Below, piece after piece: positions 6,296-24,277 of a stretch of DNA of 46,925 bases. This DNA comes from Acidimicrobiia bacterium (lineage in GTDB: Bacteria > Actinomycetota > Acidimicrobiia > Spongiisociales > JAENVV01): contig JAOUMT010000003.1 of assembly GCA_029881355.1 (NCBI GenBank), positions 1 through 46,925 on the forward strand, read 5' to 3'. The notes below the pieces were generated by a model that worked only from the letters and a program-made list of their open reading frames with translations, made no database searches and had not been told where the DNA came from. Both the position numbers and the translations under genes were made by a program. Each line of letters begins with the position of its first letter. Position 1 is the stretch's first letter.

Positions 6296-7228
6296 TCACG
6301 CCTCGCTCGACGCGGCGCCTGCTATCACCGCGTCGACGATCATTTCCACAACCTGTTGGATCGCATCATCGAGCTGTTCCATCGAGATAATCGGAACACC
6401 GTGTTGTCTCGCGCACGATTGGACATAGCGGTCAATTCGGCGCACCTCGTCGAAGGCATCGAGGTACCGATCCGCGCTGCGCTGCGTAGCTTGTTCGGCG
6501 CGCGCCCGAAAGTGAGCCCGGTGGACTTCCGCATCGTTGACGACCAAGACGGTTTGGCAAATTACGGCGCGCTTGGACCACAGTTCCACTCCGTCGTCAT
6601 AGAGACCAGGAACCATGTGAACGCCCTCTACCACCAGCCCCGTGCCTTCCTTTATGGCACGATCAATCAGGCCGCGCACGCCGGTCGAGACCATGTCGAC
6701 CTGACTCTGGAAACCGACGATGACGGGATCGTGGTCGGGAGGAACGGGTGAGCGGAGTGCCTGGTGGGCTTCGAATGACGAAACGTGCAACATGGGAGCC
6801 AAAGTGTCCGCCACGAGCTGGCGCATCACTTGGCGCACCGCGTCGGTCGGAATCACGCTGGAGATCCGGAGCCGAGCCCCAACCTCCCCGGCTACAGAGG
6901 ACTTACCGACTCCAGGAGCACCGCCGAGCAGGACGATGATGGGCTTGCCGCGCCGGCGGGCCTCCAACCAGGCAACATATCGATCGGCCGAACCAACTCC
7001 CAGGTGAGACTCGATAGATCTCGTGGTGATGTCCATCAGGTCCTCAATGGCGATTTCGGGAAGTCTTCGTTCCAAGAGTCGCGCCTCCGTCTCTTCCGCA
7101 ATCGTGTAGGCGGTCTCGGGCTCGATCCCCACAACAATCATGGACGATGCCGCGACGAACTTGGAAAACGGCAGCGGGTTCTCTCGCCGGTCAAGTACCC
7201 AGATGTAGTGTCCCGCCTGGCTAACCAT
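6296..7228 (-). CDS. 2-phosphoglycerate kinase (cyclic 2,3-diphosphoglycerate pathway)
   Basis: A 310-residue protein matching archaeal 2-phosphoglycerate kinases in layout and motifs. An ATP-cone-like N-terminal domain (about residues 6-75: PLPFSKFVAASSMIVVGI..AYTIAEETEARLLE) precedes a P-loop kinase domain with GGAPGVGKSS (102-111), SSVIPTDAVRQVMRQ, LHVSSFEAHQAL, and EGVHMVPG (201-208). The known reaction is ATP plus 2-phosphoglycerate to 2,3-diphosphoglycerate. The start at 7228 was chosen because GGAG sits 5 nt upstream; a longer frame to 7330 would run into the divergent phosphoesterase gene. The next enzyme of the pathway is encoded at 8395-9708, on the same strand, with two plus-strand genes between. 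It is divergent from the metallophosphoesterase gene with a 63-bp gap. Confidence 0.88.
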   Translation of the reverse strand: MVSQAGHYIWVLDRRENPLPFSKFVAASSMIVVGIEPETAYTIAEETEARLLERRLPEIAIEDLMDITTRSIESHLGVGSADRYVAWLEARRRGKPIIVLLGGAPGVGKSSVAGEVGARLRISSVIPTDAVRQVMRQLVADTLAPMLHVSSFEAHQALRSPVPPDHDPVIVGFQSQVDMVSTGVRGLIDRAIKEGTGLVVEGVHMVPGLYDDGVELWSKRAVICQTVLVVNDAEVHRAHFRARAEQATQRSADRYLDAFDEVRRIDRYVQSCARQHGVPIISMEQLDDAIQQVVEMIVDAVIAGAASSEA

Positions 7229-7276
7229 AGGACTCCATTGGTTTCGGTGATGCCGGAATGCACCCTGCCATACGGC

Positions 7277-7282
7277 TAGTAT
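7277..7282 (+). promoter_or_regulatory. -10-like element before the metallophosphoesterase gene
   Basis: TAGTAT ends 9 nt before the ATG at 7292, so the leader would be at most 2-3 nt. No ribosome site is visible. It lies in the short divergent gap shared with the 2-phosphoglycerate kinase gene. Confidence 0.4.
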
Positions 7283-7291
7283 GACACCCCG

Positions 7292-8128
7292 ATGGCTTCT
7301 CTGACGATCGCCCAACTCTCTGATCTTCATTGCGGTTCACCCTTTTTCGACCCCGCACTGCTATCAGCGGCGGTCAACGAGATTCTCGATCTGAAACCCG
7401 ACCTCGTTGTGGTAGCCGGCGACCTAACACAGGAGGGCTACGCCGAGGAGTTCGAGATGGCTCGTGACTTCCTGCGGCCCTTGCGACAAGCCTTCACCAC
7501 GGTCATCGTGCCCGGCAACCACGATTCGAAAAACGTCGGATATCTCCACTTTCACGACCATTTCGGGAAAGGCAACACAGACTCCAAAGGCGACTTTTCA
7601 CTTTCCCTGACCACGGACGCCTATCCACGGTCGACCAAGATCGTGGCAGTGGACAGTTCCAAGCCTGACCTGGCCGAAGGAGAAATCGGTAGGTCTCGAT
7701 ACGAGTGGATCCGCCAGGAATTCGACGACCCGGCCGACCTGCGGCTCTTCGTCATGCACCACCACCTCGTGTCGGTGCCGGGCACCGGCCGGGAACGAAA
7801 CATCGTCTGGGACGCCGGTGACGTCATGGCCCTGCTCGAGGACGTCGACGTCGACATCGTCCTGGCCGGTCACAAGCATGTCCCCCACGTCTGGCAGGTA
7901 GACCGGATGTTGATCATCAACAGCGGAACGGTTTCGTCGTATCGCCTGCGTGGCTACACCCGACCGTCGTACAACGTGGTTCGAATTGACGAAGCCAGCG
8001 TCGAAGTCACGCTCGTGTACCCGGGCTCTGGCCAGCAAACGGCTGCCTATTTTGACCGGGTAACCACCGAACTCACCCGTAACCCCGACATGGCAGGCAT
8101 GTTCTCGAAAGCCGCTTGGCGATGGTGA
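7292..8128 (+). CDS. Calcineurin-like metallophosphoesterase
   Basis: A 278-residue cytoplasmic dinuclear-metal phosphoesterase resembling class III cyclic-nucleotide phosphodiesterases and CpdA-like proteins. The full metal-ligand series is present: DLH (Asp11, His13), GD (43-44), GNHD (75-78), the MHHHL segment and GHKH near the C-terminus. There is no signal peptide. It sits between the two genes of the cyclic 2,3-diphosphoglycerate pathway, so a phosphodiester or phosphomonoester of that pathway is a plausible substrate, but this is only inferred from position. It overlaps the next gene by 7 bp (ATGGTGA). Confidence 0.88.
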   Translation: MASLTIAQLSDLHCGSPFFDPALLSAAVNEILDLKPDLVVVAGDLTQEGYAEEFEMARDFLRPLRQAFTTVIVPGNHDSKNVGYLHFHDHFGKGNTDSKGDFSLSLTTDAYPRSTKIVAVDSSKPDLAEGEIGRSRYEWIRQEFDDPADLRLFVMHHHLVSVPGTGRERNIVWDAGDVMALLEDVDVDIVLAGHKHVPHVWQVDRMLIINSGTVSSYRLRGYTRPSYNVVRIDEASVEVTLVYPGSGQQTAAYFDRVTTELTRNPDMAGMFSKAAWRW

Positions 8129-8424
8129 TCCGCCTATTTCTCTCGGCAGTATCGGCGGCCGATTTGGACAAGCTGATCGCCATGTTCAAAGAAGATGTTA
8201 TTCCAGCCTTCGAGTCCGCTCCCGGATGCCTGGGCATCGAACTGATTCGCGCCGAAAAGGCCGGAGTTGGCGGCCTCATCGAAGGAGGCGTGATTATCCG
8301 ATGGGAGTCCGCCGAACACATGGAGTCGGCACTCAACGATCCGGCCATCATCCAGAGTCAGCACCGGGTCAGGGCGTTGCTGCGGCGCGAGCCATTACGC
8401 AAGGTCTACGAGGTTATCTCCTAG
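8122..8424 (+). CDS. Small ABM-like (antibiotic biosynthesis monooxygenase-fold) protein
   Basis: A 100-residue protein of dimeric alpha-beta barrel appearance: a first strand VIRLFLSA, a helix with DLDKLIAMFKEDVIPAFESAPGC, strands GIELIRAE and GGVIIRWES, and a helix AEHMESALNDPAI before RALLRREP. This pattern fits ABM/quinol monooxygenase-like domains, where members range from haem-degrading to non-enzymatic. The ATG at 8122 overlaps the phosphoesterase stop; a TTG at 8116 is an alternative. Its 3' end overlaps the oppositely oriented cyclic diphosphoglycerate synthetase gene by 30 bp. The function is unknown. Confidence 0.7.
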   Translation: MVIRLFLSAVSAADLDKLIAMFKEDVIPAFESAPGCLGIELIRAEKAGVGGLIEGGVIIRWESAEHMESALNDPAIIQSQHRVRALLRREPLRKVYEVIS

Positions 8425-9708
8425 TCTCCGGTCCACAACCCTGGCCAGTTCACCGGTCCCACCGGCGACGGCAACCCGATTGTGGATGAGGCCGGCTTCA
8501 ATCCCCCGACTGGATGCCCACGGCAGAACCAGATCAACTGCCGCGGCTTTCACTTCGACGAGTATCAGGTCCGTCGTGGCTGCAGCCGCCAGATCGTCGC
8601 CGAGCCTGGTCCGATCGGACAAACTGTGAATCACCTCGACCGACGACGCTCCGAGTCGCGACAGATCGCTCGTCAGATGATCCTGGGCGAACTCCGGTGC
8701 GGTCGTAACAGCCAACACCCGCCGGCCCTCGACCGGCAATGATGGCTCAAGCTCATATCCCGCCGACAGGACTTTCATATCCGGATTCAGGTCGCTCAGG
8801 ACCTGTCGGAGGCGCCCAACCCGGCCTACCGATTGTTGATCGGGATCGACAATCACGACTGCGGTTGCCTGTTTGACCCGGAACGGACCCAGGTAGCCGT
8901 CGAGATATCCCGGATCGATATCGACGGGCATGACGAGCACATGGGCCTGTGCCTCAGCAGGAGGAAGGGCGGTGCCGCTCCCTTCGAAGATCATACGTTC
9001 GGGACCGAGCAGCTCAGCCGCGCTGACTCCGGCTGCAAAATTGTGGATATCGGTCTCACCAGAAATGCCTGCGCCGCATCGAAACGTACCGATGGTGTCG
9101 ACTCCGGCGAAGACGGCATCCTCGACGTAGTCGGAGGCTGCGTGCATGCCCAGCGCTGACAGTTCCGCGAGTCCCTCAATCGACGCGGTGAACTCCCCAG
9201 CTCGCAGAACCGTTGGCAACGCCGGACCGCCACGCCCCATCGTGACGATTGCCAGCTTGAGTCCGGTGTCCCGCCAATATCTCGCCAGTTCGATCGCGAC
9301 CGCCGTCTTACCGGTTCGTTTCCCGGTACCGCTTACCGCCACGGCAGGTATATCGGTAAGACGGGGGAATGTTGGAGGATCGAAACGGTAACCGGCTCCC
9401 TGATATCGGACATTCCTGGCCAACGCCAACGAAATCAGGGCGAATCGTTTCCGATGGTCGAGGACGGGTTCGTCACTGAGATCAATGACCACGTCCGGCG
9501 CCAGTGCATCGATGGTGTCGGCCAGCGCCTGTTCCGGATCGCCGACGACTACGGGCACCGAGAGATCCGGCGGGCGATCGGTTTTTTCGGTGCCTCCGAG
9601 GAACACTGCACCGACAATCTGATAACCGTCACTTGCGAGAGCGGAGAGCGCGCGTTCGACCACCGGCGGGTAATGCTGACCGTCGATGAGTACGAGGCAT
9701 CTCTGCAT
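8395..9708 (-). CDS. Cyclic 2,3-diphosphoglycerate synthetase
   Basis: A 437-residue protein with the features of the archaeal enzyme that cyclises 2,3-diphosphoglycerate at the expense of ATP. An N-terminal domain (1-115: CLVLIDGQHYPPVV..GAVFLGGTEK) is followed by a P-loop domain with GTGKRTGKTA (127-136), IVTMGRGGPALP (154-165), a SDYVEDAVFAGV segment, GAGISGETD and IFEGSGTALPP. The C-terminal region contains ESSLSD-like and LVEVKAAAVDLV segments. The start at 9708 was chosen because it begins the conserved region and lies 6 nt after a TACGCT -10; 25 further upstream codons overlap ftsK. It sits 40 bp after ftsK on the same strand. With the kinase at 6296-7228 the whole two-step pathway from 2-phosphoglycerate is present. 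Confidence 0.85.
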   Translation of the reverse strand: MQRCLVLIDGQHYPPVVERALSALASDGYQIVGAVFLGGTEKTDRPPDLSVPVVVGDPEQALADTIDALAPDVVIDLSDEPVLDHRKRFALISLALARNVRYQGAGYRFDPPTFPRLTDIPAVAVSGTGKRTGKTAVAIELARYWRDTGLKLAIVTMGRGGPALPTVLRAGEFTASIEGLAELSALGMHAASDYVEDAVFAGVDTIGTFRCGAGISGETDIHNFAAGVSAAELLGPERMIFEGSGTALPPAEAQAHVLVMPVDIDPGYLDGYLGPFRVKQATAVVIVDPDQQSVGRVGRLRQVLSDLNPDMKVLSAGYELEPSLPVEGRRVLAVTTAPEFAQDHLTSDLSRLGASSVEVIHSLSDRTRLGDDLAAAATTDLILVEVKAAAVDLVLPWASSRGIEAGLIHNRVAVAGGTGELARVVDRRLGDNLVDLA

Positions 9709-9748: not shown

Positions 9749-12010
9749 TCAGTCCGAAACGCCGACCATTTGCTCGAGGTCATCGACGGTGACGAGTACG
9801 TCCCGGGCTTTGGAACCGTGTGACGGGCCGACTACCCCACGATTCTCAAGGACGTCCATGAGGCGTCCTGCCCTGGCAAACCCCACCCGGAGCTTGCGCT
9901 GCAGCATCGACGTCGACCCGAGCCCCGACCGGACCACCAGTTCGATTGCCTGGCGAATCAACTCGGCGTCTTCATCGTCGTCTTCGGCAGCTTGGACTTT
10001 GGCCTTCTCGGTCGAAGCCTCGATGACCTTGTCCTCATACTGAGCTTCCTTCTGCTTCTTCACCCAATTGACAACGGAGCGCACTTCTTCTTCCGACACC
10101 CAGGCACCTTGCACCCGGGCCGGTTTGGGATCCTTGGCGGTGACCAACAAAAGGTCACCCATGCCAACCAGCTTCTCGGCCCCGATGGTGTCAATGATGA
10201 CGCGACTGTCGGTCTGGGAAGCTACCGAAAAGGCCATCCGGGATGGGATGTTGGCTTTGATGACACCGGTGATGACATTCACCGACGGACGTTGAGTAGC
10301 AATCACCAGGTGGATGCCGACCGCTCGGGCCATTTGGGCGATCCGGACGATCGACGCTTCAACATCGCGACCCGCCACCATCATGAGGTCGTTGAGCTCG
10401 TCAATGAGGATCACGAGATACGGGAAACGATCGAAGCCGTCCTCGTCGACACCGCCAGCATCCCACTTTTCGTGATAGCCCCCGATGTCACGCACTCCGG
10501 CGTCTGCCAGGAGGTCGTAGCGGCGATCCATCTCCTCGACCGCCCACTTGAGCACCTCATTGGCTTTCTTCGGGTTGGTGATGACCCGGGTAAGGAGATG
10601 AGGAACTCCGTTGTACTGACCAAGCTCGACCCGTTTCGGATCAACCATGATCATCCGGAGCTCGTCCGGGTGAGTGCGCATAAGCAACGACGTGATCAAT
10701 GAGTTCATGCACGACGACTTACCAGCACCGGTCGCTCCGGCGATCAGAACATGTGGGAGTTCGGAGAGGTTCACCAGCGACGCACGACTGTTGATGTCCA
10801 TCCCCACGCCGACCACGGTGGGATGCGTCTCGTCCTTGGCTTCTTGGGATCGAAGTATGTCGCCGAGCGTGACCATGCGTCGTTTTCGGTTGGGTACCTC
10901 GACCCCGATGGCTGACTTGCCCGGGATTGGCGCCAGCAGTCGCACGTCCGGAGTCGCCATGGCGTAGGCGATGTCCGTCGCCAGATTGGTCACCCTGGAG
11001 ACCTTGACACCGGCCGCCAACTCGATTTCATAGCGAGTCACCGTCGGGCCGGGGACGATCTTGGTGAGCTTGGCGTCGACCCCATGCTGGCGAAGCGTTT
11101 CCTCAAGGTCGGCAGCGGTCTCTTCCAACGCCCTCCGGTTCTGACCTTCGGCTTTGCTCTCTCGCAGCAATTCGATCGGGGGCAGTTGATAGGTGCTGTC
11201 GGCTACCCGCCGGGGTGCCGGAGTCGACTCTTTCTTGGATTTCTTGGCCGGCTCGGGACGCGACTTGTCGGGGGTGCCCGATGGCTTCATCGGCTTGGGG
11301 CGGTGGGCCGACGGAGTCTTTTTCGCGACGTGTCGGGGCCGGGCCACTGGAAGTTTCGCTGGAATTTCGGACGTCAGGCCGCCCACCCATCCCTTGATTC
11401 TCGTCCCCACGGCTCGGAAACCGATGAACACTTCCCGCACACTGGTGCGAGTGGCGAGGAGAACCCCCATCGACGTAACGGCCGAAAGCACCACGAACGA
11501 GCCCCAAAAACCGATAACTCGACTCATTGGAAAGGCGACTAGCGACCCGATGGCTCCGCCCCTGGCGCGAACCAGGTCGGCATTGCCGAACAACTCAACC
11601 GCACCAGTGAGTAGATGGAAAAGCGAGAGCGCCCCGAAGTACGAGAGCGTGGTGCCGATACCAATCTTGCCGTAATCGTTGCGCGGATTCCCGATGATCA
11701 AAACGATGCCGACGGTGGCGAAAAGAATGGGAATGAAGTACGCCCACACGCCAAACAGCAGCGTCAGTCCCCCGTGGATCCAGTCTCCGAACGGTCCGGC
11801 CTTCCCGAAGAATGCCAGAGCCACGAGAATGCCAACAACGAGCAGGGCGACGCCCCACACATCATCGGTTTGGGATCCCAGCCTGCGCCGAAGCGATTCA
11901 AAAACGGAAGCCAGCGTGGTCCGTTTTTTGGCGGGGGTTTTTCTTTTGTTTGTCGAAGACACCCGTTTCCGACCGTTTGCCCCTGGACGGGTGGGTGTCC
12001 GTTTTGCCAT
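9749..12010 (-). CDS. ftsK: DNA translocase FtsK/SpoIIIE
   Basis: A 753-residue septal DNA pump that clears and segregates chromosome termini at division. A basic N-terminus (1-45) is followed by four or five membrane segments (about 52-190), a Pro/Lys-rich linker, and the motor domain with Walker A GATGAGKSS (425-433), the VILIDELNDLMMV Walker B region and ATQRPSVNVITG. The C-terminal gamma winged helix (AIELVVRSGLGSTSMLQRKLRVGFARAGRLMD) reads polar DNA motifs. The gene follows rnj by about 95 bp in the familiar dapA-rnj-ftsK order. A TAACGT element lies 9 nt before the ATG and no ribosome site is seen. Confidence 0.96.
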   Translation of the reverse strand: MAKRTPTRPGANGRKRVSSTNKRKTPAKKRTTLASVFESLRRRLGSQTDDVWGVALLVVGILVALAFFGKAGPFGDWIHGGLTLLFGVWAYFIPILFATVGIVLIIGNPRNDYGKIGIGTTLSYFGALSLFHLLTGAVELFGNADLVRARGGAIGSLVAFPMSRVIGFWGSFVVLSAVTSMGVLLATRTSVREVFIGFRAVGTRIKGWVGGLTSEIPAKLPVARPRHVAKKTPSAHRPKPMKPSGTPDKSRPEPAKKSKKESTPAPRRVADSTYQLPPIELLRESKAEGQNRRALEETAADLEETLRQHGVDAKLTKIVPGPTVTRYEIELAAGVKVSRVTNLATDIAYAMATPDVRLLAPIPGKSAIGVEVPNRKRRMVTLGDILRSQEAKDETHPTVVGVGMDINSRASLVNLSELPHVLIAGATGAGKSSCMNSLITSLLMRTHPDELRMIMVDPKRVELGQYNGVPHLLTRVITNPKKANEVLKWAVEEMDRRYDLLADAGVRDIGGYHEKWDAGGVDEDGFDRFPYLVILIDELNDLMMVAGRDVEASIVRIAQMARAVGIHLVIATQRPSVNVITGVIKANIPSRMAFSVASQTDSRVIIDTIGAEKLVGMGDLLLVTAKDPKPARVQGAWVSEEEVRSVVNWVKKQKEAQYEDKVIEASTEKAKVQAAEDDDEDAELIRQAIELVVRSGLGSTSMLQRKLRVGFARAGRLMDVLENRGVVGPSHGSKARDVLVTVDDLEQMVGVSD

Positions 12011-20105: not shown

Positions 20106-22190
20106 ATGCGCGACCGCTCCATGTTGACTGAGATCCTGCCGGCCGAGGACCGGGCCATCGAAAAGGTGGTCGAACGGTACCAACGCGTCGCTCCGGCGGT
20201 GACCCGTTTCGCTCGCACGCTCTGCGGCAATCAAGAACTGCGAGTTCGCCTCGGTTCGGAGGCCCGGAGTTCTGACAGCGAGATCGTGGTCAACCCCGGT
20301 ATCTTCCAAGCCGCCTATTCACGGCGGGCTCCCGTCACGCCCGAAGAAGTCGCCCTGGCGTCGGCTCTGCACGAAGTCGTGCATCTCGTTTCGACCAACC
20401 TCGACGAACGCCGGCCACTTCCCCGCCAGTGGTTCACTGAAAGCGACGACATTCCCGAGGGTGAATTTGACCTGCTCGATGCCCTCGGACGAGCGGGCGG
20501 CGGAGCGGCCGAGGCGCTGTTCTTCGCACTGGAAGACGCCCGCCAGGAGAGACAAGGCCTTGAAATGTATCCGGGAGCGCGGTCGGTCCTGACGGATATG
20601 TACGTCGCAGCACTCAGCCAGGCGTTGTCAGAAGCCAAACCACTGACCCAGTTCGGGATCGCCTGCTTCATGCTGTTGGGCGGCCATGTGGACCGTGACT
20701 ACCTCGAAAAGAAGACGGACGGCCGGGTGGCGGTCGCCCTGGCCGACGCGGCTCCCTTCATTGAGGCAGCGGCCGAGAGCACCGATCCGTGGGAGATCGG
20801 AACGTTGGCGCTCCAACTGTTGAACGTCGCCAAACTCCACAAGATCGCGACACCCACATCGGAGACCGAAACTTCAGGTCAGAAGAAGGCCCGCGAGGAA
20901 CTCGACGAGTCATCGATCGCCGACGGCGTCGACGAGGTTCGCCTCCTCACCCCGATCCTGCAAGATAGCGAGACCTACGAAAAGACTCGCAAGGCTTCCG
21001 ATGCGCGAGCCGGGGAATCCATGCGCCGGGCCCCATCGGAAGTGGCCAGTCAGGAGTCCACCGATCAGATCCTCAAGGTGTCCCAGGCGCCGACGGTGTA
21101 CCTTCCCTCAGGGCAGGGGGGCAAACTCATCGTCGTACCGTTCCCCGACCGTTTCCGCCAGTGGGCTCCTGACGGTCGGGACCGACTGAAGGAGGCCACC
21201 CGACGCTGGCATATGGCCCAGGGACGGATCTCAGGCGAGTTGTTTCCGCTGTTCGCAGCCAACCAACGACGAGGTCTCCAGTCTGGCTTCGATGCCGGGG
21301 ACCTGTCACCGCACGCCCCGCTCCTGCTGGCTGGCGGCCTGTATGAGCGGATGTACGAACGACGAGCCAGGAGAACTCGGCGCTCATATGCCGTCAGCCT
21401 GTTGATCGACGGTTCGGCCTCGATGCTTCAGCCGCGCTCGATCGACGGAACGAGCAGGAAGTCACCGTGGGGGCTGGCGGCCGCCACCCTGGGCGCCTGG
21501 TCACTCGCCCAACTGTGCGACGAACTTCAGATCGATTTTGAGGTGGCGTTGTTCAATCGATCATTCGTCGCCGAACCACTCGACAACGAGTACGAATACA
21601 CCCGCCGATCGTCGCGAACGACTAGCGGCTTGCGTCGGACTCAGGGATCGAGTGCCGATCGGCTTTCGTCAACGGTCAATCACTACATGATCAAGTCGTT
21701 TCAGCAACGCTGGAGGTCAGTCAGCGACGTAATGGCAGGGTTGTTCTTTTCGGCCGCTGATGCCAGAACGGCGGCCGAGTACGCCCGGCGTGAACCTCGC
21801 GAAGCGCCACCTATTTCGATGTTCTCGAAAGGGGCGAACGTGGACGAATACAACGTCACCCACGCCGCCGAACGGATGGCCCGCCTGGGAGCGACCGTCC
21901 GGGTCCTCGTGGTCCTGGCGGACGGGATGACCCGCGGCTCGAGTGCCGAGCTTCAGGCGGCGGTCAAGCGGGCCGAGGGCAACGGAACGATCGTCTTGGG
22001 TATCGGGATTGGTGAAGACACGGTCGAGACGGTGTACCCCCGCTATCAGATTGTCGACCGCCCCGAAACGCTGGCCAGATCGGTGATCGAGGGAGTCAAG
22101 GGCTCGCTACGCAAATCACTCATCACCGAAGGATTTTCAAGCCGGACGTTCGCGTCCGAATTTAACTGGAAGGAAACGACCCATGTCTGA
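20106..22190 (+). CDS. CobT-like VWA-domain protein with HExxH motif
   Basis: A 694-residue protein resembling the CobT subunit of cobaltochelatase-type complexes and related MoxR-partner proteins. The N-terminal part has a zinc-peptidase-like ALHEVVH motif (His89, Glu90, His93) followed by FFALEDARQERQG. The middle is charged and linker-like (about 255-330). The C-terminal VWA domain carries a complete MIDAS first motif DGSAS (435-439), VLADGMTRG and GIGIGEDTVETVYPRYQIVD, as in CobT. It overlaps the CobS-like gene by 8 bp. No magnesium- or cobalt-chelatase large subunit or cobalamin gene is nearby, so the pair may remodel another client. The start at 20106 is not well fixed; 20121 is an alternative. 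Confidence 0.8.
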   Translation: MRDRSMLTEILPAEDRAIEKVVERYQRVAPAVTRFARTLCGNQELRVRLGSEARSSDSEIVVNPGIFQAAYSRRAPVTPEEVALASALHEVVHLVSTNLDERRPLPRQWFTESDDIPEGEFDLLDALGRAGGGAAEALFFALEDARQERQGLEMYPGARSVLTDMYVAALSQALSEAKPLTQFGIACFMLLGGHVDRDYLEKKTDGRVAVALADAAPFIEAAAESTDPWEIGTLALQLLNVAKLHKIATPTSETETSGQKKAREELDESSIADGVDEVRLLTPILQDSETYEKTRKASDARAGESMRRAPSEVASQESTDQILKVSQAPTVYLPSGQGGKLIVVPFPDRFRQWAPDGRDRLKEATRRWHMAQGRISGELFPLFAANQRRGLQSGFDAGDLSPHAPLLLAGGLYERMYERRARRTRRSYAVSLLIDGSASMLQPRSIDGTSRKSPWGLAAATLGAWSLAQLCDELQIDFEVALFNRSFVAEPLDNEYEYTRRSSRTTSGLRRTQGSSADRLSSTVNHYMIKSFQQRWRSVSDVMAGLFFSAADARTAAEYARREPREAPPISMFSKGANVDEYNVTHAAERMARLGATVRVLVVLADGMTRGSSAELQAAVKRAEGNGTIVLGIGIGEDTVETVYPRYQIVDRPETLARSVIEGVKGSLRKSLITEGFSSRTFASEFNWKETTHV

Positions 22191-23184
22191 AACTGTTGTA
22201 TTCGAGGATCCCACCGGCGAAGGAAAGGTCATCGAACTCGAAACCTTCCAGGTTCCCAAGTCCATTCCGGACTACGAGCACCGTATGAACAAGATTCCCG
22301 ACCCCGACCCTCACTACGTTGACCTCGGGATGCTGTACCGCTTTGCACAGGTCGAAAAGGTTCGACGCGAGAACTCAGACGCGTTTGTCCCGCTCCATGT
22401 GGCAGTTCGAGGCCATATGGGCACCGGCAAGGATCACGACATCGAGCAATTCGCCGCCCTCATCAAACTCCCGTACTTCCGAATCCCCCTGACTGGTGAA
22501 GTCCGCGACATCACTCTGATCGGATCGACGAAGCTGCACGGCGACGGGAAAGGTGGGACCGAATCACGCTGGGAGGACGGCGACATCACCAGGGCCTTGC
22601 GGGGACCCGCACTGGTGAACCTTTCCGAACTCAATGCGGCAGGGGCCGAGACCTTGTTCGCTCTCCACGGGTTGCTCGACCGGTACCAGGCGATCGACTT
22701 GCCGAACGGTGAGAACGTCGAACTGCGCGCCGACGTGCGACTCTTCGGCACGATGAACCCGACCGACCTGCGGGACTATGCCGGAACCCAGACCCTCAAT
22801 AAGGCATTCGCCGACCGGTGGGTTATCTGGCACAAACGGTTCCCGAATGCCGATCAGTTGCGGGCCATGATCACCAGACGCTATCCAACTCTGGCCGACC
22901 CATACGTCGAGGCGATCGCCCGTTTGGCAAGCGAAATCAACGAATCGTTCGAACAATCCGACGCCGGAACCCGCGTCGAAACCCCCATGAGCTTGCGTGG
23001 GACACTCGACCGCCTCCCGACCGGCCTGCAGATGTTTTCGGAGGCGGCCGATCCCCTCCGCAGGTCCTGGGAGGAGTTCGTACTTCCGCACGTCGACGAA
23101 TACGACCAGGATCACTACGAAACGGTCTGGAATGCCGTCGTGCGCAAGGGGCCAACGGAAAAACCCTATGGAGGGCTAGCCTAA
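22183..23184 (+). CDS. CobS/MoxR-like AAA+ protein with altered Walker motifs
   Basis: A 333-residue AAA+ protein that aligns by eye with CobS: the Walker A region reads GHMGTGKDHDIEQFA where CobS has GTGKSTHIEQVA. Lys83 is kept but the metal-coordinating Ser/Thr is Asp84. The Walker B region reads NLSELN (146-151) where CobS and MoxR have DE; the Asp is Ser148 and the Glu149 is kept. Sensor 1 Asn (LFGTMNPTD) and the NKAFADRW arginine region are present. It may bind ATP weakly or hydrolyse it slowly. A ribosome site GGAAGG precedes the ATG, which overlaps the VWA gene. It should act with that VWA protein. Confidence 0.82.
   Translation: MSETVVFEDPTGEGKVIELETFQVPKSIPDYEHRMNKIPDPDPHYVDLGMLYRFAQVEKVRRENSDAFVPLHVAVRGHMGTGKDHDIEQFAALIKLPYFRIPLTGEVRDITLIGSTKLHGDGKGGTESRWEDGDITRALRGPALVNLSELNAAGAETLFALHGLLDRYQAIDLPNGENVELRADVRLFGTMNPTDLRDYAGTQTLNKAFADRWVIWHKRFPNADQLRAMITRRYPTLADPYVEAIARLASEINESFEQSDAGTRVETPMSLRGTLDRLPTGLQMFSEAADPLRRSWEEFVLPHVDEYDQDHYETVWNAVVRKGPTEKPYGGLA
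23177..23182 (+). promoter_or_regulatory. Leaderless -10 element for the LOG-family gene
   Basis: TAGCCT ends 6 nt before the ATG at 23189 and spans the last codons and stop of the CobS-like gene. A GGAGG lies about 13 nt from the ATG, so ordinary read-through translation is also possible. Confidence 0.4.
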
Positions 23185-23188
23185 GTCG

Positions 23189-24277
23189 ATGCGCAAATAC
23201 GAGATGGGTAACGAAGAAATCGACGCGGCGGTGGCCGCCCTCGTGGCCCAAGCCGATTCCAAACCCAACGAAGACCTGACCGCCGAAATCATCATCACCG
23301 CCTTGAAGTTGTACCGCGATGGCGCCGAACGTGGTGATCTGAAGCTGGTGAATACCGCACTCAAAGAAATGCGTTACTCGATGCTGGTCTTCTCGCGAGA
23401 TCGGCACCGCCCGAAAGTAACGATGTACGGATCGGCCAGAACCCCGAACAGCGACATCGAGTATCAGCTGGCGAAACGTTTCGCCGAAGTCATGGTCCAA
23501 CGCAGCTGGGCGGTCATCACCGGTGCCGGACCCGGCATCATGGAAGCCGGCAACGAAGGCGCCGGGATGGATGCCTCCTACGGGGTAAACATTCGGTTGC
23601 CGTTCGAATCGAACGCCAACCCATTCGTGTCCCCGGATCAGCTGATCAACTTCAAGTATTTTTTCACCAGGAAGCTCGGGTTCGTCAAAGAGTCGTCGGC
23701 CTTTGCCTTGTTCCCTGGCGGATTTGGCACCATGGACGAAGCTTTCGAGCTGCTCACGCTCACCCAAACCGGTAAATCCGACCTCCATCCGATCGTGATG
23801 GTCGGCTCCGAGCAGTCCACGTATTGGCAACGATGGAACGAATTCGTCGTCGACGAGCTCGTGGGGTCCGAATTGATTGCCCCCGAAGACCAGAACCTGT
23901 ATCGGATCACGGACGACCCGATCGTGGCAGCGGACGAGATATGCCACTTTTACGCCAACTACCGCTCCCAGCGCTATGTCGACGGCAAGCTCGTCCTACG
24001 GGTCACGCAAGGTCCCACCCCGGACCAGCTGACCGAACTGAACGATGAGTTCAGCGACATCCTGGTCTCTGGCGCCATCGAGTCAGTCGACCCGAGCAAC
24101 GCCGAGGTGCGTGACGGCGACGACCTGGAGGCGAGCCGACTCCAGCTGCATTTCGATCGTCGCCACTACGGGCGGCTGCGTTCGGTCGTGAACATGGTCA
24201 ACGACTGGGTCGCCACGCCCGAAATCGTGCATCCGGGCACCGCATTTACCGACGAGCAACAGGACCGCCCCTGGTAG
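23189..24277 (+). CDS. LOG-family (lysine decarboxylase-like) protein
   Basis: A 362-residue Rossmann-fold protein of the LOG family, whose characterised members are nucleoside 5'-monophosphate phosphoribohydrolases. The signature PGGFGTMDE is at 176-184, with VTMYGSART, ITGAGPGIMEAGNEGA and GVNIRLPFE. A charged N-terminal extension (about 1-65, MRKYEMGNEEIDAAVAALV..) and a C-terminal extension of about 100 residues make it longer than simple LOG proteins (about 190). It is 4 bp after the CobS-like gene, so the three genes probably form a unit. How a nucleotide hydrolase-like protein relates to a CobT/CobS-like pair is not known to me. Confidence 0.85.
   Translation: MRKYEMGNEEIDAAVAALVAQADSKPNEDLTAEIIITALKLYRDGAERGDLKLVNTALKEMRYSMLVFSRDRHRPKVTMYGSARTPNSDIEYQLAKRFAEVMVQRSWAVITGAGPGIMEAGNEGAGMDASYGVNIRLPFESNANPFVSPDQLINFKYFFTRKLGFVKESSAFALFPGGFGTMDEAFELLTLTQTGKSDLHPIVMVGSEQSTYWQRWNEFVVDELVGSELIAPEDQNLYRITDDPIVAADEICHFYANYRSQRYVDGKLVLRVTQGPTPDQLTELNDEFSDILVSGAIESVDPSNAEVRDGDDLEASRLQLHFDRRHYGRLRSVVNMVNDWVATPEIVHPGTAFTDEQQDRPW

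Follow-up and report, generated by a model that had tools for sequence, protein, structure and literature searches.

Two enzymes of cyclic 2,3-diphosphoglycerate (cDPG) synthesis have been described from archaea: 2-phosphoglycerate kinase (2PGK) converts 2-phosphoglycerate and ATP to 2,3-diphosphoglycerate (2,3-DPG), and cyclic 2,3-diphosphoglycerate synthetase (cDPGS) closes the phosphoanhydride with ATP (PMC12136491, PMC1224877). The cDPGS of Methanothermus fervidus was reported to be reversible, and a membrane-bound cDPG hydrolase activity was reported from Methanothermobacter (PMC1224877), for which no gene is named in the papers found. In the M. fervidus cDPGS, 2,3-DPG is contacted by E45 (from the other subunit), K145 and R146, Mg is bound by T150 and D208, K149 and K406 act as charge shields and ATP is contacted by E305, P335, T353 and E404, while K46 is shown beside the site (PMC10690619). 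The structure paper of 2023 considers cDPG exclusive to hyperthermophilic methanogens. Here we describe a locus in a 46,925-nucleotide stretch of an Acidimicrobiia bacterium (contig JAOUMT010000003.1, in the following the window), which carries homologues of both enzymes together with a phosphoesterase gene and which, judged from homology, fold, conserved contacts, co-occurrence and linkage, is likely to be a bacterial cDPG module with the two biosynthetic activities known from archaea. The host assembly comprises 3.08 Mb in 319 contigs, with a completeness of 99.87% and a contamination of 0.98%.

The synthetase and the kinase

A sequence-only reading of the window had proposed two open reading frames (ORFs) on the same strand as the genes of both enzymes. 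Both were found where that reading had placed them, and the 437-residue protein indeed contains the motifs GTGKRTGKT and MGRGGP:

8395 to 9708, minus strand: cDPGS, 437 amino acids (phmmer match to 8ORU, active-site residues, predicted fold)
6296 to 7228, minus strand: 2PGK homologue, 310 amino acids (NCBIfam NF003259, identity to Methanobrevibacter 2PGKs, AlphaFold model)

The profile search against the archaeal enzymes, which the same reading had recommended, gave clear matches for both proteins. The window cDPGS aligns with M. fervidus 8ORU over residues 3-405 (E = 1.8e-68, 36% identity over 403 amino acids, phmmer), and its PDB matches comprise only three distinct sequences, all of them cDPGS (8ORU and 8ORK with E = 1.8e-68, 9SXB with E = 2.4e-62); no Pfam or NCBIfam model matches it at E ≤ 0.001. 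The substrate-binding residues, whose loss had been considered by the sequence-only reading, are retained: window E41, K42, K130, R131, K134, T135, D193, T336, E385 and K387 correspond to M. fervidus E45, K46, K145, R146, K149, T150, D208, T353, E404 and K406. Thus 10 of the 12 reported ligand and metal contacts are kept, among them all 2,3-DPG contacts, both Mg2+ ligands (as T135 and D193), both charge shields and the ATP contacts T353 and E404, and both exceptions lie on the nucleotide side. The same ten positions do not vary among 93 homologues from bacteria and archaea, except that a single row has a gap at E404 and K406. The AlphaFold model (predicted local distance difference test, pLDDT, 90.9) superimposes on ligand-bound 8ORU over the full length with a template modelling (TM) score of 0.92, and the alignment from residue 3 together with this score indicates that the cDPGS-specific N-terminal domain of ~127 amino acids, joined to the P-loop domain, is present. 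A generic P-loop or LpxK-like protein was rejected, since LpxK, the next fold, reaches a TM score of only 0.42. Phylogeny did not move the protein to another functional family either; in the midpoint-rooted tree, whose root serves the drawing only, the characterised archaeal cDPGS nest among the bacterial ones.

For the kinase the best NCBIfam match is NF003259, 2-phosphoglycerate kinase (282.8 bits, E = 3.4e-84, nearly the whole length), and in the AlphaFold model (pLDDT 88.9) an N-terminal domain of helices precedes a P-loop nucleotide-kinase fold. A close homologue of the kinase with a solved structure was not found. The layout of ATP-cone plus P-loop that had been read from the sequence holds at the level of the family, as the Pfam ATP-cone is found in 11 of 15 aligned close relatives, but the window protein itself has no ATP-cone match at E ≤ 0.01. 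Two Methanobrevibacter genomes with cDPGS possess 2PGKs which pass the curated equivalog cut-off of NF003259 (343), and the window protein shares 36-37% identity with them. It stays below this cut-off itself, as do the other bacterial 2PGKs scored likewise, but it has the 2PGK layout, the overall similarity and the partnership with cDPGS.

Pairing and distribution of the two genes

The co-occurrence survey proposed by the sequence-only reading was carried out on 397 Actinomycetota genomes, whereby matches of E < 1e-20 were regarded as strong and cDPGS was searched with a 14-row alignment. Strong matches were obtained in 153 genomes for cDPGS and likewise in 153 for 2PGK. The pairing is near-perfect: 152 genomes (~38%) carry both genes, one carries cDPGS alone, one 2PGK alone and 243 carry neither. 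Within the single families f91 and f93 the genomes listed have either both genes or none of them, and in family f66 both were retained though unlinked, e.g. at C1:957081 and C1:54372 on one contig of genome G305. Among 80 named loci from GTDB genomes, analyzed by tblastn, 2PGK is part of the locus in 68, always on the same strand as cDPGS, and lies within 350 base pairs (bp) in 65; 6 of the 12 genomes lacking a local 2PGK have a clear one elsewhere. In four loci, L058 (Acetothermia) and L084, L088 and L096 (Bacillota), the genome search found cDPGS without any 2PGK; possibly these are incomplete metagenome-assembled genomes (MAGs) or use a different partner.

The observation of a bacterial locus with homologues of both cDPG enzymes is thereby confirmed, and its interpretation is supported in part. 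Such loci are not peculiar to the actinobacterium of the window; many Actinomycetota have them, and so do members of several further bacterial phyla. Within Actinomycetota they occur in Acidimicrobiia, Thermoleophilia, Coriobacteriia, Euzebyaceae and Geothermincolaceae, and in MAGs of other phyla in Coatesbacteria, Poribacteria, Gemmatimonadetes, Acidobacteria, Acetothermia and Bacillota. According to the record titles many carriers originate from soils, fens and groundwater, not from hot springs alone. In the class of the window cDPGS is sparse (strong in 16 of 295 genomes, including all four of the genus); the other three genomes of the genus carry cDPGS 71-88% identical to that of the window with the kinase beside each, and the nearest named relative is the Acidimicrobiia MAG LH_M20 (88% identity). 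Among Methanobacteriota, Methanobrevibacter included, 105 of 120 genomes gave a strong cDPGS match. A phage or plasmid origin of the module is not supported: cDPGS had zero matches in 72,556 plasmid and 50,697 phage records, and none in viral contigs in a narrow single-sequence scan.

In many Actinomycetota (L028, L042, L054, L064 and similar loci) the module stands in a conserved gene order between hom-thrC-thrB-like genes upstream and transaldolase-like, rho, prfA and prmC genes downstream. The lysine-threonine, rho and prfA neighbours were taken as conserved chromosomal context and not counted among the pathway genes.

The phosphoesterase and the layout of the locus

The two-gene locus of the sequence-only reading proved incomplete: the pair does lie on the minus strand, but the intervening plus-strand genes, including a probably linked phosphoesterase, had been omitted. 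The additional features are:

7292 to 8128, plus strand: calcineurin-like metallophosphoesterase, 278 amino acids, of a cDPGS-associated family with the signature P-x-TGRERN (Pfam Metallophos 71.9 bits, linkage, co-occurrence)
8116 to 8424, plus strand: antibiotic biosynthesis monooxygenase-like (ABM-like) protein, 102 amino acids (Pfam ABM 22.1 bits, just below the cut-off of 23.1)
7229 to 7291, no strand: intergenic stretch of 63 bp separating the divergently oriented genes of 2PGK (310-residue form) and phosphoesterase, by its coordinates a putative shared regulatory region of both genes

As this plus-strand gene pair is located between them, cDPGS and 2PGK are not on one simple transcript in the window genome. 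Automatic ORF calls are crude on GC-rich loci, and the linkage counts rest on tblastn instead. By this method 43 of 81 loci have a member of the phosphoesterase family no more than 400 bp from cDPGS, mostly directly upstream on the same strand, resulting in the order phosphoesterase-cDPGS-2PGK. The subfamily of the window phosphoesterase is usually unlinked to cDPGS in other genomes; altogether, members of two phosphoesterase subfamilies adjoin cDPGS, and their arrangements differ. Of the 153 cDPGS-positive genomes among the 397 Actinomycetota, 151 contain the family, against 4 of the 244 cDPGS-negative ones; in 240 genomes both are missing. Among Methanobacteriota it occurs in 27 of 29 cDPGS-positive and 7 of 15 cDPGS-negative genomes, whose completeness is not given, so that absence is weak evidence here. 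The ten best matches in plasmid records reach only 27-34% identity.

The metal motifs of a dinuclear site (D-x-H, GD, GNHD, HH and GH-x-H) are all invariant in the phosphoesterase alignment A3, and the family shares the motifs P-x-TGRERN, HHH[LVI] and GH[KR]H[VM]P. An anti-phage function according to NCBIfam DS9_1 was rejected (74.8 bits versus a cut-off of 420). The ABM-like gene is kept in L025, L026 and L027 at 91, 84 and 61% identity, respectively, and possibly forms a two-gene unit with phosphoesterases of the window's subfamily; in L202 (4104-4412) a similar-looking small protein follows an unlinked phosphoesterase of this subfamily. In Methanobacteriota a cluster of NAC, phosphoesterase and a gene without NCBIfam match is found in L205, L206, L207, L209-L211 and L215, preceded in L207 and L211 by a tgtA-like gene, whereas a second phosphoesterase copy (L208, L212) has other neighbours. 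The NAC-linked cluster suggests an older or wider role of the phosphoesterase.

With respect to the gene borders, the phosphoesterase and ABM-like genes overlap by a few bases, and the latter also overlaps the 3' end of cDPGS. The 2PGK ORF encodes 344 amino acids from the ATG at 7330 (6296-7330) and 310 from the ATG at 7228; the shorter form clears the divergent gene beginning at 7292, whereas the longer one would overlap it. Upstream of cDPGS an ftsK-like gene (9749-12010) is encoded on the same strand, and cDPGS begins ~40 bases past its end; an in-frame extension of cDPGS to 462 amino acids from 9783 is possible and would run into the 3' part of that gene, which ends at 9749. The flanking ftsK-like, RNase J-like and dapA-like genes read as bacterial. 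Elsewhere in the window (20106-24277, plus strand) a 694-residue ORF without Pfam match precedes the genes of an AAA_5 ATPase and a lysine-decarboxylase-like (LOG-type) protein and may encode a hitherto overlooked partner of this ATPase.

Proposed pathway, alternative readings and known systems

In the proposed pathway the bacterial 2PGK would phosphorylate 2-phosphoglycerate with ATP to 2,3-DPG, from which the bacterial cDPGS, again using ATP, would form the intramolecular phosphoanhydride of cDPG. The metallophosphoesterase fold cleaves phosphodiesters and phosphoanhydrides, and the third gene could provide the return arm, either from cDPG to 2,3-DPG or from 2,3-DPG to phosphoglycerate, so that the three proteins would constitute a turnover cycle of a phosphate-rich and energy-rich anion. 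Linkage and co-occurrence make cDPG or 2,3-DPG a possible substrate of the phosphoesterase, an assignment to which we give somewhat less than even credence. More tentative still is the proposal that the P-x-TGRERN family represents a cDPG hydrolase common to methanogens that make cDPG and to a large share of the Actinomycetota. With respect to its role, bacterial cDPG could be a phosphate store, a phosphagen or a stress solute.

Several observations weigh against this interpretation. M. fervidus E305 is replaced by D in the window cDPGS, and position 335, a P in PMC10690619, numbers as F in the aligned 8ORK chain and is Y in the window, so that its assignment is uncertain. The branch leading to the clade of the window cDPGS is long, the kinase does not reach the equivalog cut-off, and shared ancestry inflates the Fisher p-values of the co-occurrence. 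In methanogens the phosphoesterase mostly lies between NAC and the gene without NCBIfam match, sometimes after tgtA, and away from cDPGS; for several genomes from other phyla that contain cDPGS (G635-G639), no strong member of its family was found. Furthermore, the hydrolase of Methanothermobacter is membrane-bound, whereas the short window protein has no obvious membrane segment. Finally, the record of metabolite and enzymes stems from archaea alone. Nevertheless, bacterial cDPG synthesis is strongly predicted.

The pathway might run and still sustain only a small pool of 2,3-DPG or cDPG, for regulation or as cofactor of phosphoglycerate mutase, instead of a bulk solute. The habitats of many carriers would be in line with such a pool, and abundant bacterial cDPG was not found in the literature searched; a cofactor role needs no cDPGS, yet cDPGS is present in 152 of the 153 2PGK-positive genomes, and we regard this possibility as doubtful. 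It appears unlikely that cDPG is a phosphagen in the sense that cDPGS regenerates ATP by the reverse reaction while the phosphoesterase serves another substrate. The reported reversibility of the M. fervidus enzyme (PMC1224877) and the linkage of the methanogen phosphoesterase to NAC and tgtA instead of cDPGS speak for this option, but in Actinomycetota nearly every genome with cDPGS, and hardly any without it, has the phosphoesterase, which also neighbours cDPGS in two arrangements. A pair acting on a related phosphorylated hydroxy-acid and producing a different cyclic anhydride, for which the archaeal names would fit the fold and not the substrate, is quite improbable: the 36% identity and the long branch of the synthetase, the kinase score below the cut-off and the membership of mevalonate-3-phosphate 5-kinase in the superfamily of 2PGK would allow it, but the residues touching 2,3-DPG or Mg (E45, K145, R146, T150, D208) and those nearby (K46, K149, K406) are invariant across the 93 sequences, apart from the gapped row at K406, and a kinase of the 2PGK family is the constant partner of cDPGS. 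That the contig is an archaeal contaminant or was mis-binned, conceivable as both genes are best known from methanogens, is refuted because the loci of the same genus carry cDPGS and kinase, and it is further opposed by the Acidimicrobiia MAG as nearest named relative and by the bacterial-looking flanking genes.

Given the intact pairs, the conserved active sites and the co-occurrence, many bacteria, among them some of soils, fens and groundwater, probably make cDPG. We expect that bacterial proteins of this kind may be annotated as cDPG synthetase in databases already, so that homology of the genes by itself is perhaps no novelty; apparently new are the extent and the closeness of the cDPGS-2PGK pairing in bacteria, together with the linked phosphoesterase. 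The open-access literature searched, in which most subscription papers are missing, contained no report of cDPG from bacteria. If the prediction is true, cDPG would be recast from a thermoprotectant to a more general phosphate or energy solute, and enzymes of non-hyperthermophiles would become available for its preparation. The linked phosphoesterase offers a concrete and easily tested candidate for the cDPG catabolic enzyme; if it is a cDPG hydrolase, cDPG turnover by 2PGK, cDPGS and hydrolase would be a widespread bacterial cycle of phosphate and energy storage and not a speciality of hyperthermophiles.

Compared with known systems, the nearest solved relatives of the phosphoesterase are the phosphodiesterases GpdQ and Rv0805 (2ZO9, 2HY1), with which it has the metal motifs GNHD and GH-x-H in common. 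The profile similarity amounts to only ~50-60 bits, and the family carries HHH[LVI] and P-x-TGRERN in place of the HHPP region, motifs that both phosphodiesterases lack. With the cDPG hydrolase of Methanothermobacter it would share the proposed chemistry, and most of the cDPGS-positive Methanobacteriota tested contain a member of the family. The kinase differs from the archaeal 2PGKs (NF003259, PRK04220) in its score of 282.8 against 343 and resembles them nearly over its full length, including the layout of ATP-cone and P-loop. It keeps the P-loop lysine (GVGKSS), as do most other bacterial 2PGKs (GVGKS), whereas the 2PGK of Methanobrevibacter sp. 87.7 (L136) has threonine there (GVGTSS). The host of the window cDPGS is an uncultured bacterium, M. 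fervidus a hyperthermophilic methanogen, and apart from exchanges such as that of E305 the two synthetases (8ORK and 8ORU for M. fervidus) are homologous over their full length, identical in ten contacts and alike in fold.

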